DNA of 64,000 nt from Pseudonocardia humida (GTDB taxonomy: Bacteria; Actinomycetota; Actinomycetes; Mycobacteriales; Pseudonocardiaceae). Both the position numbers and the translations under genes were made by a program. Positions 98-37,494 of the stretch are shown in pieces (the first letter of the stretch is position 1; each line of letters opens with the position of its first letter). The notes beneath the pieces were generated by a model. The model was given only the letters and a program-made list of their open reading frames with translations. It ran no database searches and was not told the origin of the DNA. Location of the stretch: contig NZ_JAGSOV010000057.1 of assembly GCF_023898865.1 (NCBI RefSeq), forward strand, positions 1 to 64,000. Direction: 5' to 3'.

Positions 98-233
98 CCC
101 GGTGAACCTATGTGGTCACCGCACTAGTCCGCCGCGCGAGGTGTCGGCCGAATCCCCGATGTCGCAGCGTGCCGGCGGACCTACCGTCGGTGCGGTCCGG
201 GATGCGGCCCGGACCGCTGGGGGGGAGGCGCAC

Positions 234-755
234 ATGGAGCGCGATCGGCTGTTCATCGAGGACCTGGCCGAGACGGTGAGCGGGCTGCGCCCGCCGGCCG
301 TCGAGCCGACGCCGGGCGACGTCACGTCGCAGGCGGTGGGCGAGGAGGGCGACCAGCCCGGCGACGACGTGGTCACCACCCAGGCGCTGGGGGAGGAGGG
401 CGACCAGATCGAGGACTACCCCGACGTCGATGACGTCGAGGACCTCGACGACCAGGTCGTCACCAGCGACGCGGTGGGCGAGGAGGGCGACCAGCCCGAC
501 GACCCGCCGATCGACGTCCCGATCGACCCCGGCTGGGGGACCGGCGAGCCGGTCGTCGTCACCAGCGACGCGGTCGGCGAGGAGGGCGACCAGCCCGAGG
601 ACCTGCCGTTCGACGTCCCCATCGGGTCCATGCCGTTCGACCCCGGGCCCGGCGACGCCGGCTTCGACGAGGTCGACGACGAGTGGTCCGACGACGAGCC
701 CGACGACCTCACCGGGGACGCCTCCGACGACTACGACGCCGAGATCCCGGTCTGA
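234..755 (+). CDS. Putative multicore graspetide (omega-ester RiPP) precursor
   Basis: A 173-residue, very acidic protein with no known enzyme domain. The start at 234 is preceded by a strong ribosome binding site (GGGGGAGG at about 220-227); an upstream in-frame start at 102 lacks one. The N-terminus (MERDRLFIEDLAETVSGL) looks like a helical leader peptide. Residues 30-120 hold four near-identical 12-mers, VTSQAVGEEGDQ, VTTQALGEEGDQ and twice VTSDAVGEEGDQ, separated by Asp/Pro-rich linkers. Hydroxyl residues followed by a Glu/Asp cluster are what graspetide cores offer for ester or amide crosslinks. The next gene, 26 bases downstream, encodes an ATP-grasp ligase, the enzyme class that makes such links. 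No protease or exporter gene is adjacent. The acidic tail (residues about 125-173) contains no further copy of the core. The role is inferred from repeats plus context. Confidence 0.7.
   Translation: MERDRLFIEDLAETVSGLRPPAVEPTPGDVTSQAVGEEGDQPGDDVVTTQALGEEGDQIEDYPDVDDVEDLDDQVVTSDAVGEEGDQPDDPPIDVPIDPGWGTGEPVVVTSDAVGEEGDQPEDLPFDVPIGSMPFDPGPGDAGFDEVDDEWSDDEPDDLTGDASDDYDAEIPV
321..593 (+). repeat. Four imperfect core repeats inside the precursor gene
   Basis: The copies lie at 321-356, 372-407, 459-494 and 558-593, each 36 bases and encoding VT(S/T)(Q/D)A(V/L)GEEGDQ. The GEEGDQ segment is invariant in all four. Only the third to fifth residues and one aliphatic residue vary. Spacing between copies grows along the gene (15, 51 and 63 bases), so this is a set of conserved cores in diverged linkers, not a simple tandem repeat. 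Confidence 0.9.
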
Positions 756-781
756 CGGGCGCCCCGGGAGCGGAGCGCGCG

Positions 782-1759
782 ATGATCGGGATCATCGGTC
801 CGGCCGGCGACCCGCAGGTGGTGTGCGTGGCGGCGGCCCTGCGCCGGCGCGGCGCGGCGACCACCGTGCTCGACCTCGGGGGGTTCCCGCGCGCGCTGCG
901 GCTGAGCCTGCGCGACGGGGCGCCGGTCGCCGACGGCGTCGACCTGGCGGCGGTCGGCGCCTGGTACGTCCGCAGCCTGCCGCTGCCGCTGCCGTTCCGG
1001 GTGGCCGAGGGCGGCGATCCGGCGGTCGCGCGGCGCGACTACGCCGCCGGTCGCGAGCGGCGCTCGTTCCTGGCCGGATTCACCGCGGCGCTGGCCGCGG
1101 GTGGGGCCGCGCTGGTCAACCCGCCCGAGCGGATGGCGCAGCACTTCCGCAAGCCCGAGCAGCTCGACGCGCTGCGCGGGGCCGGTGTGCCGGTGCCCTC
1201 GACGCTGGCCACGAACGACCCGCTGGCCGTGGCCGCGTTCGCCGCCGAGGTGGGCGCCGTGGTCTACAAGCCGCTGGCCGGGGGCGGGCGGTGCCGGCGG
1301 CTGGCCGCCGCCGACCTCGTGCCCGAGCGGCTGGGTCGGCTGGCGGCGGCCCCGGTGCTGTTCCAGGCCGAGGTGCCGGGGCGCAACATCCGGGTGTACG
1401 TGGTCGGTGGCGCGGTCGCGGCGGCCTACGAGATCGTGTCCGACGAGCTGGACTACCGCGGCGCCGAGTCCGACGTGCGGCCCGCGGAGCTCACCGGCGC
1501 CGAGGACGCGGCCTGCCTGCGGGCCGCCGCCGCGTGCGGGATGCCGTTCACCGGCATCGACCTGCGGCGCCGCCCCGACGGCGGGTTCGCGGTGCTGGAG
1601 TGCAACCCGTCGCCGATGTTCGCGGGCATCCAGCGCGGCGTCGGGGCCGAGCCCGTGTCGGACGCGCTGGCCGGGTTCCTGCTCGCCGGAGCAGGCGCCG
1701 AGCGCTCCGAACCCGGCCGGGACGCCGATCAGCCGGCGTCCGCACCCGCCTTCCGGTAG
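782..1759 (+). CDS. ATP-grasp ligase, probable graspetide macrocyclase (MvdD/RimK-like)
   Basis: A 325-residue ATP-grasp enzyme. It should use ATP to activate Asp/Glu side chains as acyl phosphates and join them to Thr/Ser hydroxyls of the upstream precursor. The N-terminal part (GIIGPAGDP onward) is the pre-ATP-grasp domain. K163 in VYKPLAGGG and the PGRNIRVYVV strand (R201, R204) fit the nucleotide site. FTGIDLRRRPDGG followed by ECNPSP (E273, N275) gives the Mg2+ ligands. The start at 782 follows GGGAGCGG; a longer frame from 683 would overlap the precursor gene. The 3' end overlaps uxaC, on the other strand, by 31 bases. It could in principle be another RimK-like peptide ligase, but the repeat-bearing partner favours a graspetide role. 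Confidence 0.85.
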   Translation: MIGIIGPAGDPQVVCVAAALRRRGAATTVLDLGGFPRALRLSLRDGAPVADGVDLAAVGAWYVRSLPLPLPFRVAEGGDPAVARRDYAAGRERRSFLAGFTAALAAGGAALVNPPERMAQHFRKPEQLDALRGAGVPVPSTLATNDPLAVAAFAAEVGAVVYKPLAGGGRCRRLAAADLVPERLGRLAAAPVLFQAEVPGRNIRVYVVGGAVAAAYEIVSDELDYRGAESDVRPAELTGAEDAACLRAAAACGMPFTGIDLRRRPDGGFAVLECNPSPMFAGIQRGVGAEPVSDALAGFLLAGAGAERSEPGRDADQPASAPAFR

Positions 1760-3159
1760 GCCGCCCGCGGGAGGTTGTAGGCCAGGTCGACGGCGGTCTC
1801 CAGCGCCTCCTCCATGCCCAGCCGGTGCTCGGCGACCAGCGCGGCCAGGTAGCCGGCGTCGATGCGGCGGGCCAGGTCGTGGCGGGCGGGGATGGACACG
1901 AAGGCGCGGGTGTCGTCGACGAAGCCGGTGGTGTTGTAGAAGCCCGCGGTCTCGGTGACCGCCTCGCGGAACCGGCGCATGCCGTGGGGGCTGTCCAGGA
2001 ACCACCACGGCGCGCCCAGCCGCATCGCCGGGTAGGCGCCGGCCAGCGGGGCCAGCTCGCGGGAGTAGGTCGTCTCGTCGACGGTGAACACGACCAGCCG
2101 GAACCCAGGGTCGCGGCCGAAGGCCTCCAGCAGGGGGCGCAGCCCGCGGGTGAACTCGGCGGCCACCGGGATGTCGAAGCCCATGTCCGGGCCGAAGCGG
2201 GCGTGCACGTCGGTGTCGTGGTCGCGCAGCACACCCGGGTGCAGCTGCATCACCAGGCCGTCCTCGCGGCTCATCCGGGCCATCTCGAAGAGCATGTGCC
2301 CGGCGAAGGCCCCGGCGTCGCGGTCGTCGGCGCGCCCGGCCAGCGCGTCGGCGTAGACGCGGGCGGCGTCGGCGGGGGGCAGCGCGGTGATCGCGGTGGC
2401 GAGGTGGCCGTGATCGGTGGCCAGCGCCCCGGCCGCGGCGAACGCCCGGCGGCGCTCCCGCAGGGCCTGCAGGAACCCGTCGTAGGAACCGCAGTCGACG
2501 CCGCTGAGCTCGGCGAGCGCGTCGACGTCCGCGCGCCAGCCGGGGCGCCGCACGTGCAGCAGGGCGTCCGGGCGGAAGGTCGGCACCACCTTCTCGCCCC
2601 AGCCCTGCTCGCGCAGCAGGGCGTGGTCGGGCAGCGCGGACAGCGGGGAGTCGGTGGTGGCCAGCACCTCGATGCCGAACCGGGTGAACAGCGCCCGGGG
2701 CAGGAAGTCGGGTTTGCCCAGCTGCTCGGCGATCTGGTCGTAGAGCGCGTCGGCGGTGTCGGGCCCGGGCTGCACGGTGACGCCGAAGACGTCGGCGAGC
2801 TCGTGCTCGAGCCAGAACCGCGTGGGCGTGCCGCGGAAGAGGTGCCAGCCGGCGCAGAAGCGCCGCCAGATCTCCCGCGGGTCGGTCTGCGCGGACTCGC
2901 CGTCGACCGGTCGCACGCCCAGCTCGGCCAGCTCGGCGCCCTGCGAGACCAGCATCCGCAGCAGGTAGTGGTCGGGCACGACGAGCAGGCTCGCCGGGTC
3001 GGCGAAGGGGCGGTCCGCGGCCAGCACGGCGGCGTCGACGTGGCCGTGCATGCAGACCAGCGGCAGCTCCCGCACCTCCCGGTGGATCCGGCGGGCGATG
3101 ACGCGCGTCGCCGGGTCGGCGGGCAGGGCCCGGTCTTCGTCGAGGAGCAGCGGACGCAT
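1729..3159 (-). CDS. uxaC: Glucuronate isomerase (uronate isomerase)
   Basis: A 476-residue member of the UxaC family (close to the 470 residues of E. coli UxaC). It interconverts D-glucuronate/D-fructuronate and D-galacturonate/D-tagaturonate in the cytoplasm, the first step of hexuronate catabolism. The VCMHGHVDA motif near residue 40 is the family's metal-binding HxH strand. VVPDHYLLRML and EIWRRFCAGWHLFRGTPTR follow in the usual order. The start MRPLLLDED at 3159 has GGGAGG just upstream; a longer frame from 3195 lacks this. It is divergent from the LacI regulator and the rest of the pathway. One LacI-type operator lies 21 bases upstream of the start codon, so it is likely repressed together with the main operon. 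Confidence 0.93.
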   Translation of the reverse strand: MRPLLLDEDRALPADPATRVIARRIHREVRELPLVCMHGHVDAAVLAADRPFADPASLLVVPDHYLLRMLVSQGAELAELGVRPVDGESAQTDPREIWRRFCAGWHLFRGTPTRFWLEHELADVFGVTVQPGPDTADALYDQIAEQLGKPDFLPRALFTRFGIEVLATTDSPLSALPDHALLREQGWGEKVVPTFRPDALLHVRRPGWRADVDALAELSGVDCGSYDGFLQALRERRRAFAAAGALATDHGHLATAITALPPADAARVYADALAGRADDRDAGAFAGHMLFEMARMSREDGLVMQLHPGVLRDHDTDVHARFGPDMGFDIPVAAEFTRGLRPLLEAFGRDPGFRLVVFTVDETTYSRELAPLAGAYPAMRLGAPWWFLDSPHGMRRFREAVTETAGFYNTTGFVDDTRAFVSIPARHDLARRIDAGYLAALVAEHRLGMEEALETAVDLAYNLPRAAYRKAGADAG

Positions 3160-3180
3160 TCGACCTCCCGGCGTTGGTGC

Positions 3181-3194
3181 TGAAAAGGATTGCA
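3181..3194 (-). promoter_or_regulatory. LacI-type operator O1 upstream of uxaC
   Basis: TGAAAAGGATTGCA matches the palindromic LacI/GalR-family consensus TGNAANCGNTTNCA at 9 of its 10 fixed bases; the central C is G. It lies 21 bases upstream of the uxaC start codon in the divergent region shared with the LacI-type gene. A regulator of the right family is encoded next door, but binding is an inference. Confidence 0.5.
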
Positions 3195-3267
3195 AGAACT
3201 TCGGTCCCGAGGCAAGGCCTGTCTATCAGCGGGCACCTGGGCCAGCGCGCTAGTCCGGATTTGGGTC

Positions 3268-3296
3268 TTGACCGCAACCGCAAACGGTTTCAGACT
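3268..3296 (+). promoter_or_regulatory. Probable lacI-operon promoter with operator O2
   Basis: A TTGACC -35-like hexamer (3268-3273) is followed after 17 bases by CAGACT (3291-3296). Overlapping the spacer and the -10 is 3279-3292. Read on the minus strand it is TGAAACCGTTTGCG, again 9 of 10 fixed bases of the LacI/GalR consensus. Its centre is 98 bases from that of O1. A bound repressor would cover the promoter, which fits autoregulation and substrate induction. Confidence 0.5.
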
Positions 3297-3334
3297 CTCC
3301 CCACGCCGCAGCCCGACCACCGATGGAGGACAGC

Positions 3335-4348
3335 GTGCCCGTCACCATCAAGGACGTCGCCGCGGCGGCCGGCGTCTCGCAGTCCACGGTGTCGCGGGCG
3401 CTGTCCACGCCCGACCTGGTCAACCCCGGCACCCGCGCGCGGGTGCAGGCCGTCGCCCGGGAGCTGGGCTACCAGCCCAACCGGGCCGCCCGCGGGCTGA
3501 TCACCGGGCGCACGGCCAACCTCGGCCTGATCGTGCCGGACCTGGCCAACCCGCTCTTCGCGGCGGTGGTCAAGGGCGTGCAGGCCGCGGCGCGCGCCGC
3601 CGACTACTCGGTGTTCATCGCCGACACCGACGAGGACGCCAGCACCGAGCCCGGCCTGCTGCGCGCGCTGGCCAAGCAGGTCGACGGCATCGTGCTCTGC
3701 TCACCGCGCTCCCCGGACGCCGAGCTCACGGAGGTGGGCGCGGACACGCCGGTGGTGCTGATGAACCGGCAGGTGCCCGGCTACCCGGCCGTCACCGTCG
3801 ACAACGCCGACGGGATGCGCCAGGCGGTCGAGCACCTGGCCGCGCTCGGCCACCGGCGGATCGCCTACGTGGCCGGTCCGCGCTCGTCGTGGTCCAACGG
3901 GCAGCGCGAGCACGGGCTGCGCGTCACGACCGGGGCACTCGGCGTCGACCTGGTGCACCTGGGCCACTTCCCGCCCCGCTTCGACGGCGGGGTGGCCGCC
4001 GCCGACCTCGCCCTCGCCTGCGGGGCGACCGCGGTCGTCGCCTACAACGACATCGTCGCGCTGGGGCTGCTGAGCCGCCTGGGGGCCCGCGGCGTCGCGG
4101 TCCCGGACCGGATCAGCGTGCTGGGCTGCGACGACATCCCGATGTCGGCGATGACCCACCCCGCGCTGACCACCGTCTCGGTGCCGCAGCACGAGGCCGG
4201 TCGCGCGGCCGTGGCGATGCTGTTGGCCCTGCTGGCCGACACCGGTCCGGTCACGACCCACCGCGACCTGCCCACCCAGCTCACCGTGCGCGCCACCACC
4301 GGCGTCGCTCCCGATCCCGAACCCGGCACCGCCGACCGATCCCGATGA
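3335..4348 (+). CDS. LacI-family transcriptional repressor of hexuronate genes
   Basis: A 337-residue LacI/GalR regulator. The N-terminal helix-turn-helix reads VTIKDVAAAAGVSQSTVSRA (residues 3-22), followed by the hinge helix region ELGYQPNRAARGL. The periplasmic-binding-protein-like effector domain starts at LGLIVPDLANPLFA. I chose the GTG at 3335 because GGAGGA lies just before it; an ATG at 3323 precedes that GGAGGA. The gene leads an operon with the transporter and the catabolic enzymes, and faces uxaC. By position the inducer is probably a hexuronate or a pathway intermediate. Two operator-like palindromes in the upstream region support autorepression and control of both transcripts. 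Confidence 0.92.
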   Translation: MPVTIKDVAAAAGVSQSTVSRALSTPDLVNPGTRARVQAVARELGYQPNRAARGLITGRTANLGLIVPDLANPLFAAVVKGVQAAARAADYSVFIADTDEDASTEPGLLRALAKQVDGIVLCSPRSPDAELTEVGADTPVVLMNRQVPGYPAVTVDNADGMRQAVEHLAALGHRRIAYVAGPRSSWSNGQREHGLRVTTGALGVDLVHLGHFPPRFDGGVAAADLALACGATAVVAYNDIVALGLLSRLGARGVAVPDRISVLGCDDIPMSAMTHPALTTVSVPQHEAGRAAVAMLLALLADTGPVTTHRDLPTQLTVRATTGVAPDPEPGTADRSR

Positions 4349-4361
4349 AGGGGACACCACG

Positions 4362-5567
4362 ATGACCGTGCAATGGCGCAAGGCCCTCGCCGCAGGCGGG
4401 ATCTCGGCACTGCTGGTGCTCACCGCGTGCGGCGCCCCCAGCGCCGGGCCCGCCGCCCCGGTGCCCGCCGGGCAGGTGCCGGACCGCCCGGCCGAGCCGG
4501 TGACCCTCAACATCCTCGACGTCGCCGGCAACCTGCAGCTGACCCAGCCGATGATCGACGACTTCGTGGCCAGGAACCCCGACATCGTGTCGCGGGTGAC
4601 CACCGAGAAGGCGACGGCGCCGGAGATGGCGGGCAAGGTCAAGGCCCAGCAGGACGCCGGGCGCCTGGGCATCGACCTGGTGCTCACCGGCACCGACGGG
4701 CTGTCGGCCGGTTCCGAGCAGGGCCTGTTCACCCCGCTGCTGCCCGACTTCGCCGACCGCCTCTCCGGGATGGCCGACTACCTGGAGCCTGCCGCTGCGA
4801 TGCAGGAGCTGGCCGACAACCAGGGCGTCGTGGTCACCTACTACCCGTCCGGGCCGCTCATCGAGTACGCCCCCGACCGCGTCCCGACCCCGCCAAAGAC
4901 GGCCGAGGAGCTGCTGGCCTACGCCCAGGCCAACCCGGGCAAGGTCGGCTACGCCCGGCCGGCGAACTCCGGGCCCGGGCGCACGTTCCTGATGGGGCTG
5001 CCCTACATCCTGGGTGACTCCGACCCCAAGGACCCGGTCAACGGCTGGGAGAAGACCTGGGCCTACCTCGCCGAGCTGGACAAGACGGTCCAGTCCTACC
5101 CGTCGGGCACCACCGACACGATGAAGAACCTGGCCAACGGCACCTACGACATCGTGGTGACCACCACCGGGTGGGACATCAACCCCCGGGCGCTGGGCAC
5201 CGTGCCCGCCGAGTACCAGGTCGGGACCCTGGAGGGCTTCACCTGGGTCACCGACGCGCACTACGCGGCCGTCCCCAAGGGCGTCTCGCCGGACAAGCAG
5301 GCCGCGCTGCTGGCCCTGATCGAGTTCATGCTCACCCCCGAGCAGCAGGCCAAGGCCTACGACTCGGGCTACTTCTACCCCGGCCCGGCGATCAAGGACG
5401 TCACGCTGGACATGGCCCCGCCGGAGAGCCAGCAGGTCATCGCCCAGTTCGGCCGCCCGGAGTACGACGCGCTCATCGCCGAGCACCCGACCGCCACCCC
5501 GCTGGCCACCAAGGACATCGTGGCCGCGTTCGACCGGTGGGACCGCGAGATCGGCGGCGCACCGTGA
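4362..5567 (+). CDS. ABC transporter substrate-binding lipoprotein (hexuronate-type uptake)
   Basis: A 401-residue extracellular solute-binding protein. The signal peptide ends in the lipobox LTAC with the lipid-carrying Cys at residue 23, so the mature protein should be anchored to the outer face of the membrane. The remainder has the family 1/PotD-like fold pattern (VTLNILDVAGNLQL near the mature start; GYFYPGP and family-typical helices towards the end). It is the first gene of a four-gene importer, 13 bases behind the lacI-type gene and overlapping the ATPase gene by 4 bases. The hexuronate specificity is inferred only from the surrounding catabolic genes. Confidence 0.87.
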   Translation: MTVQWRKALAAGGISALLVLTACGAPSAGPAAPVPAGQVPDRPAEPVTLNILDVAGNLQLTQPMIDDFVARNPDIVSRVTTEKATAPEMAGKVKAQQDAGRLGIDLVLTGTDGLSAGSEQGLFTPLLPDFADRLSGMADYLEPAAAMQELADNQGVVVTYYPSGPLIEYAPDRVPTPPKTAEELLAYAQANPGKVGYARPANSGPGRTFLMGLPYILGDSDPKDPVNGWEKTWAYLAELDKTVQSYPSGTTDTMKNLANGTYDIVVTTTGWDINPRALGTVPAEYQVGTLEGFTWVTDAHYAAVPKGVSPDKQAALLALIEFMLTPEQQAKAYDSGYFYPGPAIKDVTLDMAPPESQQVIAQFGRPEYDALIAEHPTATPLATKDIVAAFDRWDREIGGAP

Positions 5568-6709
5568 GCTCGGCCGAGGCGGCCTCGCCCGGCCGGTTCA
5601 CCGAGCTGCGCCTCGACGGCGTCGGGCGCCGCTTCGCCGGCAAGGACGCGCTGGTCGATCTGGACCTGACCATCCGCGCCGGGGAGTTCATCGCGCTGCT
5701 CGGGCCCTCCGGGTGCGGCAAGTCGACCGCGCTGAACTGCCTGGCCGGGCTGCTGCCGCTGACCACGGGCAGCATCTGGCAGGACGAGCGGCGCATCGAC
5801 ACGCTGCCGGCGGAGAAGCGCGGGTTCGGGATGGTGTTCCAGAGCTACGCGCTGTTCCCGCACATGTCCGTGCGCCGCAACATCGCCTTCGGGCTGCAGA
5901 TGCGCCGGCTGCCGCGGGCCGAGGTGCGCAGGCGCACCGAGGAGGGCGTGCGGCTGGTGCAGCTGGAGGAGCACGCCGACAAGCTGCCCGGCCAGCTCTC
6001 CGGAGGCCAGCAGCAGCGGGTGGCGATCGCCCGCGCGGTGGTGCTGGAGCCGTCGCTGGTGCTGATGGACGAGCCGCTGAGCAACCTCGACGCGAAGCTG
6101 CGCCTGGAGATGCGCACCGAGATCCGGCGACTGCACCAGTCGCTCGGGCTGACCACCGTCTACGTCACCCACGACCAGGAGGAGGCGCTGTCGCTGGCCG
6201 ACCGGCTGGTCGTGCTGCGCCACGGGAGGGTGCAGCAGGTCGGCACCCCCGAGGAGCTGCACGCCCGCCCGGTCAACTGGCACGTCGCCGACTTCATGGG
6301 GTTCCGCAACCTGCTGGAACTGGAGGTCGCGCACGTCTCCGGCGGTGGGGTCGACGCCGAGGCCGCGGTGCGCGGGGAGGGGCTGACCCTGCTCGGCACG
6401 GCCACCGGGCCGGTGTCGGCGGGCGACCGGGTGGTCGCCGCCGTCCGCCCGGAGGACGTCGTGGTCGTCGACGAGGCCGGCGGCGACAACCGGATCGCGG
6501 CCACCGTCGAGGTGGTCGAGTACCAGGGCCGGGAGCTGGCCGTCGAGGTCCGCACGGCCGCGGGCCGGGCGCTGCACCTGCGCACCGAGCGGCGGCTGGC
6601 CCCGGGCGACGAGGTCACCCTGACCGTCGAGCGGGAGCGGCTGCTGGTCTACCCGCTGGCCCCCGGCGAGCAGGCCCCCGCGCCGCTGGTGGACGCGGTG
6701 ACGACATGA
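5564..6709 (+). CDS. ABC transporter ATP-binding protein (PotA/MalK-like)
   Basis: A 381-residue ATPase that powers the importer. Walker A is GPSGCGKST at residues 47-55, the signature LSGGQQQRVAIARA begins near 145, Walker B/LMDEP lies near 165-170, and the switch histidine is in YVTHDQEEA. A C-terminal TOBE-type domain follows. The GTG start at 5564 overlaps the TGA of the binding-protein gene, indicating translational coupling. The Q-loop segment FGMVFQSYALFPHMSV is typical of the spermidine/iron/sugar subfamily. It acts on the cytoplasmic side with the two permeases downstream. Confidence 0.93.
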   Translation: MSSAEAASPGRFTELRLDGVGRRFAGKDALVDLDLTIRAGEFIALLGPSGCGKSTALNCLAGLLPLTTGSIWQDERRIDTLPAEKRGFGMVFQSYALFPHMSVRRNIAFGLQMRRLPRAEVRRRTEEGVRLVQLEEHADKLPGQLSGGQQQRVAIARAVVLEPSLVLMDEPLSNLDAKLRLEMRTEIRRLHQSLGLTTVYVTHDQEEALSLADRLVVLRHGRVQQVGTPEELHARPVNWHVADFMGFRNLLELEVAHVSGGGVDAEAAVRGEGLTLLGTATGPVSAGDRVVAAVRPEDVVVVDEAGGDNRIAATVEVVEYQGRELAVEVRTAAGRALHLRTERRLAPGDEVTLTVERERLLVYPLAPGEQAPAPLVDAVTT

Positions 6710-6719
6710 GCGGGACGAC

Positions 6720-7640
6720 ATGAGCCTGACCGTCGAGCGGACCGACCCGACGCCAACCGGCCCCCGGGACCCGGGGCTGAGCCACCGGCTGGCCGAGCGC
6801 GGGGTGGACCGGACGCTGCTGCTGCTCGTGCCGGCCGTGCTGTTCGTGGCGCTGCTGTTCGTCTACCCGTTCGGCTACGGGCTGCAGCTGTCCTTCGCCC
6901 CGGCCGAGGGCGGCCCGCTGGCCAGCTACGCCACCTTCTTCTCCGACCCCTACCAGTACAACACCATCTGGATCACCCTCGGGCTGGCGCTGCCCGCGGC
7001 GCTGCTCAACGTGCTGGCCTCGGTGCCGATCGCCTACAAGATGCGCGGTCGGTTCCGCGGCAAGCGGCTGCTGACGATCGTCCTGGTGGTGCCGATCACG
7101 CTGGGCACCGTGCTCACCGCGCAGGGCCTGCTGAACTTCCTCGGCCCGGCCGGCTGGTTCAACAAGGCCGTCGTCGGGCTCGGGCTGGCCGACGCGCCGG
7201 TGCAGCTGGTCAACAACTACTGGGGCGTGTTCTTCTCGCTGGTCATCACCGGGTTCCCGTTCGCGTTCCTGCTGATCCTGTCCTACCTGTCCGGGATCGA
7301 CCCGACCCTGGAGCAGGCCGCGGCCACGCTCGGCGCGGACTGGAAGCAGCGCTTCCGCCGGATCACCCTGCCGCTGCTGGCGCCCGGCCTGGCCACCACG
7401 TTCTGCCTGGCGTTCGTGCTGGCCTTCAGCGTGTTCCCGTCGGCGGTGCTGGTCGGCAACCCCGCAGGCGAGACCCGGGTGCTCGCCCTGGCCGCCTACC
7501 AGGCCGCCTACGAGCAGTACGACTACTCGCTGGCCTCGGCGATCGCGATGGTGATGGGCGCGGTGGAGCTGCTGGTCATCGCCGTGGTGCTGGTGTGGCG
7601 CTCCCGGCTCTACGCCGGCAGCACTGGAGGGAAGGGCTGA
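6720..7640 (+). CDS. ABC transporter permease 1 (PotB-like)
   Basis: A 306-residue inner-membrane permease. The first transmembrane helix (LLLLVPAVLFVALLFVYPF) is followed by about five more. The coupling-helix EAA-type motif is EQAAATLGADWKQRFRRITLPLLAPG, which contacts the ATPase. It starts 10 bases after the ATPase gene and overlaps the second permease by 4 bases (ATGA). The arrangement of a binding lipoprotein, an ATPase and two different permeases resembles polyamine/iron/thiamine-type importers more than the usual CUT1 sugar systems, although the setting is sugar-acid catabolism. Confidence 0.9.
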   Translation: MSLTVERTDPTPTGPRDPGLSHRLAERGVDRTLLLLVPAVLFVALLFVYPFGYGLQLSFAPAEGGPLASYATFFSDPYQYNTIWITLGLALPAALLNVLASVPIAYKMRGRFRGKRLLTIVLVVPITLGTVLTAQGLLNFLGPAGWFNKAVVGLGLADAPVQLVNNYWGVFFSLVITGFPFAFLLILSYLSGIDPTLEQAAATLGADWKQRFRRITLPLLAPGLATTFCLAFVLAFSVFPSAVLVGNPAGETRVLALAAYQAAYEQYDYSLASAIAMVMGAVELLVIAVVLVWRSRLYAGSTGGKG

Positions 7641-8503
7641 TGGCGACCACCCTGGGGGCACCGGCGCGGGCGCGCCGGCGGATCGTGGGCACCCCGAGCA
7701 GCTGGCTGGTCTGGGGCGTCGTGGCGTTCTTCCTGGTCAACCTGGCCGGTGTGGTCGGCTCGGTGCTGGTCAGCTCGTTCGGCACCCGGTGGTTCGGCAC
7801 CTGGCTGCCCGAGGGCTTCACCGGCTCCTGGTACGCCTCGGCCTGGCGGGAGTTCGGGCTGTTCGACGTCGTGTGGGTGACCCTGCAGGTCTCGCTGCTG
7901 GTCGTGCTGATCTCGGTGCTGATCGGGGTGCCGGCGTCCTACGTGCTGGCCCGCCGCGACTTCCCCGGCAAGAAGCTCGTCTACTTCGCGTTCCTGCTGC
8001 CGATCCTGATGCCGCCGATCACCTACGGCATCCCGCTGGCCACCGTGCTCTACAAGTACGGCTTCGCCGGCAACATGTCCGGGGTCGTGCTGGCCAACCT
8101 GGTGCCGTCGGTTCCGTTCGTCATCCTGACCATGACCCCGTTCATCGAGCAGATCAACCCGAGCATCGAGGCGGCCGCGCGGATGTGCGGGGCCGGGGTG
8201 CGGGCGATGTTCCTGCGGGTGCTCGGGCCGTTGCTGGTGCCGGGCATCCTGGCCGCGGCGATCCTGGTGCTGGTGCGCACGGTGGGCATGTTCGAGCTGA
8301 CCTTCCTCACCGCCGGGCCGGACTCGCAGACCCTGGTGGTGTCGCTCTACTACGCCATGTCCGCGGCCGGCATCCGGGCCCAGCAGTCGGTCGACGCGAT
8401 GGCCGTCATCTACACCTCGACGATGCTGGTGCTGCTGGTCGTCGCGCTGCGCTACGTCAACCCCACCCAGCTGGTGGCCCGGGTCAAGGAGACCCCCCAG
8501 TGA
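7640..8503 (+). CDS. ABC transporter permease 2 (PotC-like)
   Basis: A 287-residue membrane permease, partner of the preceding one. Hydrophobic helices start at [21 protein letters not shown]. The EAA-type loop reads [23 protein letters not shown]. The start at 7640 is an ATGA overlap with the preceding stop and has GGAGGGAAGG about five bases upstream; a start at 7595 would overlap far into the first permease gene. Together with the lipoprotein, ATPase and first permease it completes an importer placed directly before the mannonate and altronate dehydratases. Confidence 0.9.
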
Positions 8504-8519
8504 CACCGGGGGGACGAGC

Positions 8520-9725
8520 ATGAGGATCACCGACGCCCGGGTGATCGTCACCTGCCCCGGCCGCAACTTCGTCACCCTCAAGATCATCACCGACGAGGGG
8601 CTCACCGGGGTCGGCGACGCCACGCTCAACGGCCGCGAGCTGGCGGTCGCGGCCTACCTCAGCGAGCACGTGCTGCCCGCGCTCATCGGCCGCGACGCCA
8701 CCCGCATCGAGGACACCTGGCAGTACCTCTACAAGGGCGCCTACTGGCGGCGCGGCCCGGTGACCATGGCCGCGATCAGCGCGGTGGACACCGCGCTGTG
8801 GGACATCCTGGGCAAGCGGGCCGGGCTGCCCGTGCACCAGCTGCTCGGCGGGCGCAGCCGCGAAGGCGTCACCGTCTACGGGCACGCCAACGCCGCCGAC
8901 GTCGACGCCCTGCTCGTCGAGGTCGACCGGCTGCTGGGCGAGGGCTACCGGGCCGTGCGCGTGCAAAGCGGCATCCCCGGCCTGGAGAAGGTCTACGGCG
9001 TCAGCGACGGCGCCGGCTACGAGCCGGCCGACTCGGCCGTGCCCACCGAGACCGTCTGGTCGACCGAGGCCTACCTGGACCACCTGCCCGGCGTCGTCCG
9101 GCGGGTGCGCGAGGAGTTCGGGCCCGGCCCGAAGCTGCTGCACGACGTGCACCACCGGCTCACCCCGATCGAGGCCGCCCGGCTCGGCAAGAGCCTGGAG
9201 CCCTACGCGCTGACCTGGCTGGAGGACCCGGTCCCGGCCGAGCTGCAGGAGGGGTTCCGGCTCATCCGCCGGCACACGACCACACCGATCGCGGTCGGCG
9301 AGGTGTTCAACACCGTCTTCGACAGCGCCCAGCTCATCCGCGAGCAGCTCATCGACTACATCCGCTGCAGCGTGGTGCACGCGGGTGGGATCACCCACCT
9401 GCGGCGCATCTACGACCTCGCCGCCCTGCACCACGTGCGGACCGGCGCGCACGGCGCCACCGACATGTCCCCGGTGTGCATGGCCGCCTCGCTGCAGCTC
9501 GGCATCAGCGTGCCGAACTTCGGGCTGCAGGAGCACATGCCCCACACTGCGGAGACCGATGCCGTCTTCCCGCACGCCTACCACTACGCCGACGGCTACC
9601 TGCACCCCGGCGACGAGCCGGGCCTCGGCATCGACATCGACGAGGAGCTGGCCGCCCGCCACCCCTACCGGGCGGCGTCGCTGCCGGTGAACCGGCTGGC
9701 CGACGGCACGCTGCATTCCTGGTGA
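8520..9725 (+). CDS. manD: D-mannonate dehydratase, enolase superfamily (ManD/RspA)
   Basis: A 401-residue enolase-superfamily dehydratase that removes water from D-mannonate to give 2-keto-3-deoxygluconate. Three metal ligands stand at the ends of successive barrel strands: D209 (LLHDVHH), E235 (WLEDP) and E261 (VGEVFN). The N-terminal capping domain has [14 protein letters not shown] and the [15 protein letters not shown] segment typical of RspA/ManD. Family members differ in efficiency and some also accept D-gluconate, so substrate is inferred from the neighbours. It stands between the importer and altronate dehydratase and replaces the unrelated UxuA enzyme that many bacteria use. Confidence 0.87.
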
Positions 9726-9738
9726 GAGGAGCCCGGCG

Positions 9739-11226
9739 ATGACCACCCCGACGACGAGCACGACCGATCTGCTCACGCTGCACCCCGACGACGACGTTGC
9801 GGTCGTGCTGACCGACGGCCGCGCCGGGGTCCCGGCCGGGCACAAGGTGGCCCGCCGCGCCCTTCCCGCCGGGACGCTCGTGCACAAGTACGGTCAGGTG
9901 ATCGGGGTGAGCACGGCACCGATCCGGGAGGGCGAGCACGTCCACACGCACAACCTGGCGATGCCGGGGGAGCGGTTGCGCGCCGCGGCGCCGGCCGGCG
10001 CCCCCGACGTCCGGGCCGCCGACGCGCAGGCGCGCACGTTCCGGGGCTACCTCCGCGCCGACGGGCGCGTCGGCACCCGCAACTTCATCGGCGTGCTGAC
10101 CTCGGTCAACTGCTCGGCGACGGTGGCCCGCCAGATCGCGCGGCGCTTCGAGTTCGAGCCGCTGCCCGGCGTCGACGGCGTCGTGGCCCTCACCCACGGC
10201 AGCGGCTGCGGCATGGCCGACCGGGGCCCGGGCTGGGAGGTGCTGCGCCGCACCCTGGCCGGCTACGCGCGCCACCCCAACATCGGCGGGATCGTCGTGG
10301 TCGGGCTGGGCTGCGAGGTCAACGACCTGTCGAGCCTGGTGGCCGGGCTCGGGGTGGGCGAGCACGTGCCGGTCGAGTCGTACTCGATCCAGGACGTCGG
10401 GGGCACCGCGGCCGCGGTCGCCCAGGGCGACCGCCTGGTCCGGTCGATCGCCGAGCGACTGGCCCGCGACACCCGCACCGAGGTCGGGATGGAGAACCTG
10501 GTGCTGGGCCTGCAGTGCGGCGGCTCCGACGGCTGGTCGGGGCTGACCGCCAACCCGGCCCTCGGCGTCGCCTCCGACCTGGTGGTGGCGGCGGGTGGCA
10601 CGTCGATGCTGGGGGAGACCCCGGAGATCTACGGCGCCGAGCACCTGCTGGCCGCGCGTGCCGTCGACGAGGCGGTGGCCGCCGCGCTGCTCGACCGGAT
10701 CACCTGGTGGGAGCGCTACACCGCCGACCAGGGGACCACGCTGGACGGCAACCCGTCGCCGGGCAACAAGGCGGGCGGCATCACCACGATCCTGGAGAAG
10801 TCGCTGGGGGCGGTGGCCAAGGCCGGGCGCAGCCCGCTGGTCGAGGTCGTCGACTACGCCGCCACGCCCACCCGCGCCGGGATGGTCTTCATGGACACCC
10901 CCGGCTACGACCCCGTCTCGGCCACCGGCATGGTCGCCGGCGGCGCCACCCTGATCGCGTTCACCACCGGGCGCGGCTCGGTGTTCGGCAGCCGCCCGGT
11001 GCCCACCGTGAAGCTGGCCAGCAACTCGGCGATGGCCGCCCGGATGGCCGAGGACATCGACCTCGACTGCGGGCCGGTGGCCACCGGCGGCGTCGCCCTT
11101 CCCGAGATGGGCGAGCGCGTGCTGGACGTGCTGCTGGAGGTCGCCTCCGGAAAGCCCAGCGCCAGCGAGGAGCTCGGGCTGGGCGGCGAGGAGATGGTGC
11201 CCTGGCAGCTCGGTGCGGTCCTGTGA
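9739..11226 (+). CDS. uxaA: Altronate dehydratase
   Basis: A 495-residue UxaA-family enzyme that dehydrates D-altronate to 2-keto-3-deoxygluconate in galacturonate breakdown. The N-terminal SAF-like domain (VLTDGRAGVPAGHKVARRAL) is followed by the large domain with GYLRADGRVGTRNFIGVL, THGSGCGMAD and GLQCGGSDGWSGLTANPALG. Their conserved Cys and His residues bind the iron cofactor in this family. Length matches full-length UxaA. A good ribosome binding site (GAGAGGAG) precedes the ATG, and the 3' end overlaps the next gene by 4 bases. With uxaC, it means both glucuronate and galacturonate can probably be processed. Confidence 0.92.
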   Translation: MTTPTTSTTDLLTLHPDDDVAVVLTDGRAGVPAGHKVARRALPAGTLVHKYGQVIGVSTAPIREGEHVHTHNLAMPGERLRAAAPAGAPDVRAADAQARTFRGYLRADGRVGTRNFIGVLTSVNCSATVARQIARRFEFEPLPGVDGVVALTHGSGCGMADRGPGWEVLRRTLAGYARHPNIGGIVVVGLGCEVNDLSSLVAGLGVGEHVPVESYSIQDVGGTAAAVAQGDRLVRSIAERLARDTRTEVGMENLVLGLQCGGSDGWSGLTANPALGVASDLVVAAGGTSMLGETPEIYGAEHLLAARAVDEAVAAALLDRITWWERYTADQGTTLDGNPSPGNKAGGITTILEKSLGAVAKAGRSPLVEVVDYAATPTRAGMVFMDTPGYDPVSATGMVAGGATLIAFTTGRGSVFGSRPVPTVKLASNSAMAARMAEDIDLDCGPVATGGVALPEMGERVLDVLLEVASGKPSASEELGLGGEEMVPWQLGAVL

Positions 11227-36405: not shown

Positions 36406-37494
36406 CTACGACGGGGTCGTCGTGAGCAGGTCGTTGGTGAACCAGTCGGCCGGCTCCAGCCCGGCGGGCACCAGCCCGACCCGCGCGGACTCGTCGTATA
36501 TCCGTTCCCAGCGCTCCGGCACCGTGCGCAGCAGGTCGCCGTTGGCCTGCCAGCTGGCGATGTAGTCGCGCAGGGTGGCCTTGGCCAGCTCCGGCTGCCC
36601 CAGGATGGGGATGTCGTAGTGCGTGCCGAGCTGCTCCAGCGTGCGGTCCAGCGACTCGTCCTCGATCACCGTCTGCATCGCGGCCCGGATGGCGCGCAGG
36701 TAGCGGGCCACCGCGTCGCGCCGGGCGGGGTCGGCCAGCGCGCGCTGCGAGGCGATGTACATCTGGGTGCCGGAGGCCGTCGAGTCGAACGGGTCGAGCA
36801 CCACCGCGTCGGGTTCCTGCTGCTGCAGCAGGATCGCGTTGTCCATCGTGTCGACGTAGGCGTCCACGCGACCGTTGCGGACGTTGTCGAGCACGCCGGG
36901 GCCGAGCGCGACGGTCTGCTTGCGCACGTCGCTCTCGGCCACCCCGCCCGCGGCGGCGAGCGTGTCGACCAGGGCCTCGCTGGCCCCGCCGAGCGAGGCC
37001 AGCCCGACCACCCGTCCGCGCAGGTCGGCGGGGGTGCGCACCGGGTCGTCGGCCAGCGACACCACGCGCAGCGTCGAGCGCTGCGACGGCTGGGCCACGG
37101 CGGTCACCGCGTCGCCGCGCCCGCCGATGGCCGCCATCGCCTCGCTGTCGCCGATGCGGGTGACCAGCCCGGTGCCGCCGAGCACGTTCTGGATCGCGCC
37201 TGCCGAGCCCTGGACGTACTGGAACTCGACCCGCAGCCCTTCGCGCTCGAACAGCCCGGTGATGTCGGCGATCATCTCCGGCGTGTAGGTGAGGCTCTGG
37301 ATCGGCACGACGTTGATGAACGTCACCGGGAACAGGACCGGCCGATCGGCCGTGGCCCGGGCCGGGGAGGCCCCGCCGCAGCCGGCCAGCACCACGGCCA
37401 GCGCGGCGGCCGACGCCGCCCACCCGGTTCGACGACGGACCGGGGCGTGGTCGCGGGGGACCGGACGAAGCACCATCGCGTCGGGGGAGCGCAT
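36406..37494 (-). CDS. ABC transporter substrate-binding lipoprotein, NMT1/SsuA-like
   Basis: A 362-residue binding protein. The long N-terminal region ends in the lipobox VVLAGC with the lipid-carrying Cys at residue 39; a start at residue 7 would give a more usual signal peptide. NVVPIQSLTYTPEMIADITG and the GLRVEFQYVQGSAGAIQNVL segment match NMT1/THI5-like proteins that bind sulfonates, nitrate or thiamine precursors. No permease or ATPase gene is nearby, so it is an orphan. GAGGAGG precedes the start. The 270 bases upstream carry an interrupted repeat CGGATG-N10-CATCCG (37636-37657) of unknown role. Confidence 0.82.
   Translation of the reverse strand: MRSPDAMVLRPVPRDHAPVRRRTGWAASAAALAVVLAGCGGASPARATADRPVLFPVTFINVVPIQSLTYTPEMIADITGLFEREGLRVEFQYVQGSAGAIQNVLGGTGLVTRIGDSEAMAAIGGRGDAVTAVAQPSQRSTLRVVSLADDPVRTPADLRGRVVGLASLGGASEALVDTLAAAGGVAESDVRKQTVALGPGVLDNVRNGRVDAYVDTMDNAILLQQQEPDAVVLDPFDSTASGTQMYIASQRALADPARRDAVARYLRAIRAAMQTVIEDESLDRTLEQLGTHYDIPILGQPELAKATLRDYIASWQANGDLLRTVPERWERIYDESARVGLVPAGLEPADWFTNDLLTTTPS

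Follow-up and report, generated by a model that had tools for sequence, protein, structure and literature searches.

A putative plesiocin-type graspetide locus with four tandem cores in Pseudonocardia humida

We found that two adjacent genes of the actinobacterium Pseudonocardia humida, which encode an acidic repeat protein and an ATP-grasp ligase, most probably make a plesiocin-type (group 2) graspetide with two nested esters in each repeat, eight in all. The gene pair, the core motif, the membership of the ligase in the clade of PsnB, the conserved pairing with a precursor and the selection on the cores are direct observations. The locus lies in a stretch of 64,000 nucleotides (hereafter the window; contig NZ_JAGSOV010000057.1, positions 1 to 64,000) that starts at a contig end, and the genes upstream of base 1 are outside the view.

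The precursor gene and its repeats

The features of the locus are listed in Table 1. The precursor carries the pattern VT(T/S)xAxGEEGDQ four times, the repeats being, in order, VTSQAVGEEGDQ, VTTQALGEEGDQ, VTSDAVGEEGDQ and VTSDAVGEEGDQ. The original prediction had described four such repeats in a 173-residue acidic protein with an ATP-grasp gene 26 bases downstream and a long Asp-rich tail; the sequence confirmed all of these, the last 53 residues holding 15 Asp. The same prediction had placed the T(S/T) pair six to ten residues before the E-E pair; the two pairs are in fact separated by four residues, so that the hydroxyl residues precede the first Glu by 6 and 5 positions. All four repeats fit, in tandem, the pattern T[T/S]xxxxEE. 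We take TTxxxxEE to be the core motif of plesiocin (group 2), and our full-text literature search did not find it in print as a group motif.

Table 1. Features of the precursor-ligase locus (window positions; cores start at the first residue of each T(T/S) pair, residues 31, 48, 77 and 110)
Feature	Position	Strand	Remarks
GGAGG ribosome-binding-like sequence for precursor	224..228	+	seen in the sequence; similar GGAGG before the aligned start in L038
Graspetide precursor gene (putative)	234..755	+	173 aa, four cores, 33% Asp+Glu, 0 Lys, 0 Cys
Leader motif LFIEDLAETV (residues 6-15), which the ligase may recognise	249..278	+	LFI-x-DL-x-x-TV in all four Pseudonocardia precursors
Core 1, TSQAVGEE (residues 31-38)	324..347	+	
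Core 2, TTQALGEE (residues 48-55)	375..398	+	
Core 3, TSDAVGEE (residues 77-84)	462..485	+	
Core 4, TSDAVGEE (residues 110-117)	561..584	+	
Asp-rich C-terminal tail (residues 121-173)	594..752	+	fast-evolving remainder; not in the shortest relatives, L040 and L063
PsnB-type ATP-grasp ligase (graspetide synthetase, putative), 325 aa	782..1759	+	26-base gap after precursor

Among 20,000 shuffles of the residues, none reached the four observed matches of the TTxxxxEE type (the maximum was three, in 5 shuffles), and none contained more than one GEEGDQ against the four observed (8 shuffles had a single one). A genome-wide search (8.29 Mb) with the back-translated GEEGDQ pattern gave five hits, the four of the precursor and one on contig C34, in a frame that holds this single GEEGDQ only. 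The precursor has a calculated pI of about 4.05 and, untagged and unmodified, a calculated mass of 18,313.8 Da.

The frame of the precursor runs from the ATG at 234 to a stop codon ending at 755 and is open 5' of this ATG as far as a GTG at 102. As the precursor of Pseudonocardia lacus (L038) begins with the same MERDRLFIEDL, preceded by a similar GGAGG, the true start is likely to be 234 rather than the upstream GTG.

A search with NCBIfam and Pfam models named no family for the precursor, and the microviridin leader PFFARFL was not found in it. Against PDB sequences, the whole protein matched only collagenases (best E 0.019), which we took as chance, and neither the leader with the first two cores nor the core pair of a relative (L062) gave a meaningful match. 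A profile (A2) matched designed alphaRep proteins (E 4e-09); we regarded this match as an artefact of composition and repeats because the top single stretch in the alignments shown reached at most 14.4 bits.

The ligase and its relatives

In the PDB sequence search, the nearest solved relative of the ligase was PsnB (7drm; 188 bits, E 2.3e-54), with 40.4% identity over 285 aligned positions; the entry titles of 7drm, 7drn, 7dro and 7drp give PsnB together with its precursor. The second was 9bou (54.7 bits), followed by two microviridin ligases and then by RimK/LysX chains, the four nearest sequences being PsnB, PruB and the two microviridin ligases. The ligase scored 101.1 bits with the NCBIfam graspetide ligase model TIGR04187 (GRASP_SAV_5884), below its cut-off of 350, and fell far short of both microviridin models (TIGR04184/TIGR04185; MvdD 43.8 of 475 bits, MvdC 41.5 of 425). 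The ligase had originally been assigned to the MvdD type, and this assignment is not supported, as its clade is that of PsnB.

Our tree of 26 ligase rows combined the window ligase and its relatives with three PDB fragments and with graspetide-type homologues found in the genus, the family and the phylum, the outgroup rows being hand-picked from the search results at these three levels. The window ligase and PsnB fell into a clade of seven rows with support of 100/99, together with ligases from three other Pseudonocardia, from the genome G489 and from a plasmid of Halocatena salina; within this clade, the five actinobacterial rows were grouped at 100/98. Fifty-seven positions are invariant in all seven ligases, including K163, R204, E273 and N275. 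In the alignment, R204 falls on position 233 of the chain sequence in 7drm; if the tag offset is 20, it would presumably correspond to Arg213 of PsnB, to which we ascribe recognition of the acidic partner. The predicted structure of the ligase was poor from the single sequence (pLDDT 37.7) and weak from four rows (pLDDT 49.9). When the latter was compared with known folds, the four PsnB entries came first (Z 12.8-13.4), in effect a tie with RimK at 12.4, and this ranking of a weak model lends weak support to the PsnB identity. On the clustering with PsnB, the window ligase fits group 2, the plesiocin type, and a ligase of the graspetide-synthetase type is encoded beside the precursor.

A precursor with TTxxxxEE cores lies directly upstream of the ligase in all six readable loci of the clade, the window included and PsnB's own locus and precursor set aside, with a gap of -1 to 74 bases. 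The number of repeats is four in the window, six in P. lacus (L038), three in Pseudonocardia sp. OFTM178 (L039), two in P. eucalypti (L040), four in G489 (L062) and one on the H. salina plasmid (L063). Homologous ligases accompanied by a repeat protein, and repeats conserved among relatives, were two of the checks put forward with the original prediction, and both came out in its favor (six of six loci and 20 repeats, respectively). Over these 20 repeats, core position 1 is T in 19 and A in one, position 2 is T in 16 and S in four, position 7 is always E and position 8 is E in 19 and D in one, counts that are partly built in because the regular expression that collected the repeats limited position 1 to T/S/A, position 2 to T/S, position 6 to G/D and positions 7 and 8 to D/E, and limited position 4 also. 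Position 3 is variable, with Q in six repeats, L in five, D in four, H and M in two each and F in one. The cores of L062 are TTLAIGEE (twice), TTLAVDED and ATLAIDEE. Near the N-terminus, LFI-x-DL-x-x-TV is present in all four Pseudonocardia precursors, and related leaders are found in L062 (MYISDLPESL) and L063 (HFIEEL); recognition of such a leader by the ligase is, we assume, a trait of the plesiocin type (group 2).

As a control, frames shorter than 400 aa were scanned in 14 loci of ligases outside the clade. Four of them (L047, L055, L057 and L059) had one core match each, and no locus had a second. The leader pattern matched in none of the 14; the form used was too narrow, as it failed to pick up the genuine precursor of L060/L062 as well. 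One core-like match was likewise seen in a short frame of L017. Isolated core-like matches therefore arise by chance in unrelated short frames.

The case of the H. salina plasmid (NZ_CP096022.1; L063 3465-5457) is that of an archaeon: a 39-aa ORF with a single TTMAMGEE core, missing from the listed annotation, precedes a PsnB-type ligase, and the gene after the ligase has, by eye, the look of an M50-type membrane peptidase (HEAGHYLAARPYF).

Other graspetide-type loci were seen during the scan. In 12 of 16 distinct loci (L010/L045, L011, L046, L047, L048, L050, L051, L054, L055, L057, L058 and L059), whose ligases are sister to the PsnB clade or score similarly, a Lys/Glu-rich ORF (11-21 Lys within the richest 60-aa stretch) lies upstream of the ligase; L052, L053 and L061 have no such upstream ORF, and in L056 a Lys-rich ORF lies downstream. 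Several of these ORFs then carry, by eye, a motif like FIGPELRPDL, and they may be precursors of graspetides with Lys-Glu/Asp isopeptide links and a C-terminal recognition motif. The genome of the window itself contains a second graspetide-type ligase (G000:C11:35255-36226; L031, L036), which scored 300 bits with TIGR04187 (cut-off 350) and whose nearest tree row is from G021. The ORF upstream of it weakly matched TIGR04186, a model of ATP-grasp-modified RiPPs (E 0.022, below cut-off), and an ABC transporter-like match lies just downstream, at 37432.

Selection, distribution and genomic surroundings

Between the window and P. lacus, dN/dS was 0.227 for the ligase, 0.281 for the first 16 codons of the precursor (with few changes), 0.088 for the cores (44 codons) and 1.0 for the linkers and tail (105 codons); the alignment-paired repeats of the two species need not be orthologous. 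Nonsynonymous differences numbered 5 at about 102 sites in the cores and 46 at about 241 sites elsewhere (Fisher P 4e-4, on rounded counts). Synonymous differences were denser in the cores (12 at 30 sites) than in the linkers (14 at 73 sites; P 0.044), so that the core dN/dS is somewhat lowered and the contrast is partly an effect of dS. On these figures, purifying selection acts on the cores, and the linkers and tail drift.

In the P. lacus precursor (L038 5328-5975), repeats 1-4 are near-identical in DNA, and both core glycines are encoded by GGT in repeats 1-4 and by GGC or GGG in repeats 5 and 6. The near-identity of the first four repeats and their common GGT codons suggest a recent tandem duplication in this species, and the comparison points to tandem duplication as the way in which repeat number changes.

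Ligases of this type were sporadic in the genome samples, which overlap one another. Within the genus, 4 of 62 genomes had one (E below 1e-100), and 23 had any ligase match at 1e-3. In the family, 18 of 390 genomes matched at 1e-30, the same four with more than 590 bits and the other 14 with 141 bits or less. The phylum sample gave three of 396 genomes, that of the window, G489 (444 bits) and G616 (118 bits); the class sample gave one of 394 at 1e-40, the genome of the window, and the family of G489 gave one of 146, G489 itself. The genome contig collection (115 stretches) yielded three loci, all from Pseudonocardia, no relative was found among the 27 stretches of viral contigs tested, and one of 72,556 plasmid records, an archaeal one, had a relative.

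By eye, the downstream neighbors common to the window and P. lacus are a uronate-isomerase-like gene, a LacI-type regulator and an ABC transporter, and the pairs of the other carriers have different neighbors. Since the neighbors differ among most carriers and the distribution is patchy, the pair seems to behave as a self-contained two-gene unit. An apparent cluster for the use of sugar acids was seen directly downstream of the pair, at 1729-11226 of the window (uronate isomerase-like gene, LacI regulator, ABC transporter and dehydratases, by eye); its first genes also lie 3' of the P. lacus pair and, by eye, not of the pairs of the other carriers.

When the ORF lists were inspected by eye, no NHLM-type transporter or peptidase was seen beside the pair in the first 20 kb of the window or in the P. 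lacus locus, and no oxygenase gene was recognised beside the pair. A sugar-type ABC transporter (by eye; its ATPase gave 104 bits) lies about 2.6 kb downstream, at 4362-8503, and in L038 a transporter-like ORF spans 2158-3627. Contig C84 carries the only C39 peptidase domain of the genome, together with a below-cut-off match to an NHLM-like transporter; no link between these and the precursor-ligase locus was found.

Proposed product and comparison with known systems

We propose that the ligase would recognise the N-terminal LFIEDL leader and, with ATP, would phosphorylate the side chains of the Glu residues in each T(T/S)xAxGEE core. The phosphorylated Glu residues would then be joined to the two hydroxyl residues of the core as nested esters, the first Thr to the second Glu and the second Thr/Ser to the first Glu, and the end product would be an acidic string with four stapled hairpins. 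Because the precursor has no Lys, amide links via Lys are excluded and only esters are expected; eight ester links, with a mass change of about -144 Da, are predicted. The original prediction of a multicore precursor with two links per repeat is supported; its choice between ester and amide links stands for the esters and falls for amides via Lys. The loop residue at core position 3 sets the specificity of plesiocin, and Gln or Asp at this position argues for a target other than that of plesiocin.

The ester chemistry, the nested connectivity and the distributive action would be taken over from PsnB and plesiocin. In the passages available of the cited papers, PsnA2 and PsnB expressed in E. 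coli gave two lactones per repeat (PMC9484694), plesiocin has nested rings and is reported to become more potent as the number of cyclised motifs grows (PMC13097080), and PsnB acts distributively (PMC5934393). As plesiocin and the microviridins are described as serine protease inhibitors in part of PMC13097080, protease inhibition is our best guess for the function. With less confidence, we suggest that the hairpins form a multivalent protease inhibitor and that genes elsewhere in the genome serve its export or release. We also entertain, tentatively and with more doubt than belief, the idea that the uncut 173-residue protein is itself a polyvalent, ester-stapled acidic string, which with Gln/Asp loops in place of a hydrophobic residue has a target different from that of plesiocin, and in which repeat number (two to six in one genus) is a dial of avidity set by tandem duplication.

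Other readings of the locus seem much less probable. In a graspetide of different connectivity, the extra acid of GEEGD(Q/E) or the Asp-rich linkers would take part in the links, and we consider this improbable. Of the 15 Pseudonocardia repeats, 14 do continue as GEEGD or GEEGE and one as GEEGG, and many Asp residues lie close to the cores; however, the corresponding stretches are GEEGDD, GEEAGA, DEEVDD and DEDGLS in L062 and GEEVGD in L063, so the extra acid is not kept across the clade. Moreover, each core offers only two hydroxyl residues and no Lys, and a dN/dS of 1.0 leaves no visible constraint on the linkers and tail.

That there is no cross-linking, and that a RimK-like ligase adds amino acids such as glutamate chains to an acidic repeat protein, is very unlikely, although the RimK ATP-grasp domain is the only Pfam family that scored above cut-off (30.6 vs 21 bits) and RimK comes level with PsnB when the weak model is compared with known folds. 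The PsnB match of 188 bits contrasts with at most 28.2 for any RimK/LysX chain, the tree clade holds PsnB, and selection acts on the Thr/Ser and Glu of the core, not on the C-terminus. The sporadic occurrence of the ligase (in four of the 62 genomes of the genus) might suggest a functionless locus that has decayed or whose repeats arose by chance, but the selection pattern contradicts this (ligase 0.227, core 0.088), the frames are intact and the pairing holds in all six readable loci, and we give this reading hardly any credence. A plesiocin-type product with nested esters accordingly remains the reading that we prefer.

This locus extends the PsnB-type branch to a few Pseudonocardia and to another actinobacterial lineage. 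One genus provides natural precursors of two, three, four and six repeats with a varying loop residue; because the potency of plesiocin rises with motif number, valency and target choice could be probed with this natural series. One survey of graspetides, in the part of PMC8939145 consulted, limited its candidate set to 150 aa, and such members may be missing from it, as the precursors of 173 and 215 aa exceed this limit. In the passages returned by our literature search for graspetides and Pseudonocardia, only other clusters are treated; the 21,584 graspetides predicted in PMC13097080, as stated in the portion available, may include the window locus.

We place the locus in a known family, as a convincing new relative, and do not regard it as a new kind of system. 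Plesiocin and PsnB are, we assume, a group 2 system of Plesiocystis pacifica, and the window pair resembles them in having a single ligase, 40% identical to PsnB and in one supported clade with it, and several tandem cores per precursor, with two hydroxyls and two Glu in each core where plesiocin has two esters per repeat. It differs from plesiocin in its acidic linkers of varying length, its 53-residue Asp-rich tail, its GEEGDQ and its Gln/Asp at core position 3, where plesiocin presumably has Leu, as L062 has. The four-fold repetition had been thought distinctive, but plesiocin itself is described, in the passages at hand, as tetravalent with two esters per repeat (PMC12291112).

The lack of a transporter or protease gene had likewise been thought distinctive. 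According to parts of PMC13097080, groups 27, 28 and 35 also consist of a synthetase and a precursor only, whereas group 2 clusters often include an NHLM-type transporter; the case for this claim is mixed, and the window pair, at a contig end, differs modestly from most group 2 clusters in this respect. Corallotide (group 15), described in the same source with Lys-Asp isopeptide links and hydroxylation (PMC13097080), shares a large precursor with several repeated motifs, which are modified in corallotide; unlike it, the window precursor is free of Lys, and inspection by eye revealed no oxygenase gene beside the pair. In the multicore microviridin AMdnA/AMdnC, one ligase serves several cores in one precursor, with two lactones per core (PMC5934393, in part), as a single ligase would here, but the window ligase matches the MvdD and MvdC models poorly and its leader is without PFFARFL. 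Plesiocin already shows four repeats with two links in each, and groups 27, 28 and 35 already show minimal sets made up of synthetase and precursor. Specific to this locus are the sporadic actinobacterial branch, the duplication-driven repeat number, Gln/Asp at position 3, the long acidic linkers and tail, and a neighborhood in which no NHLM-type exporter was seen.
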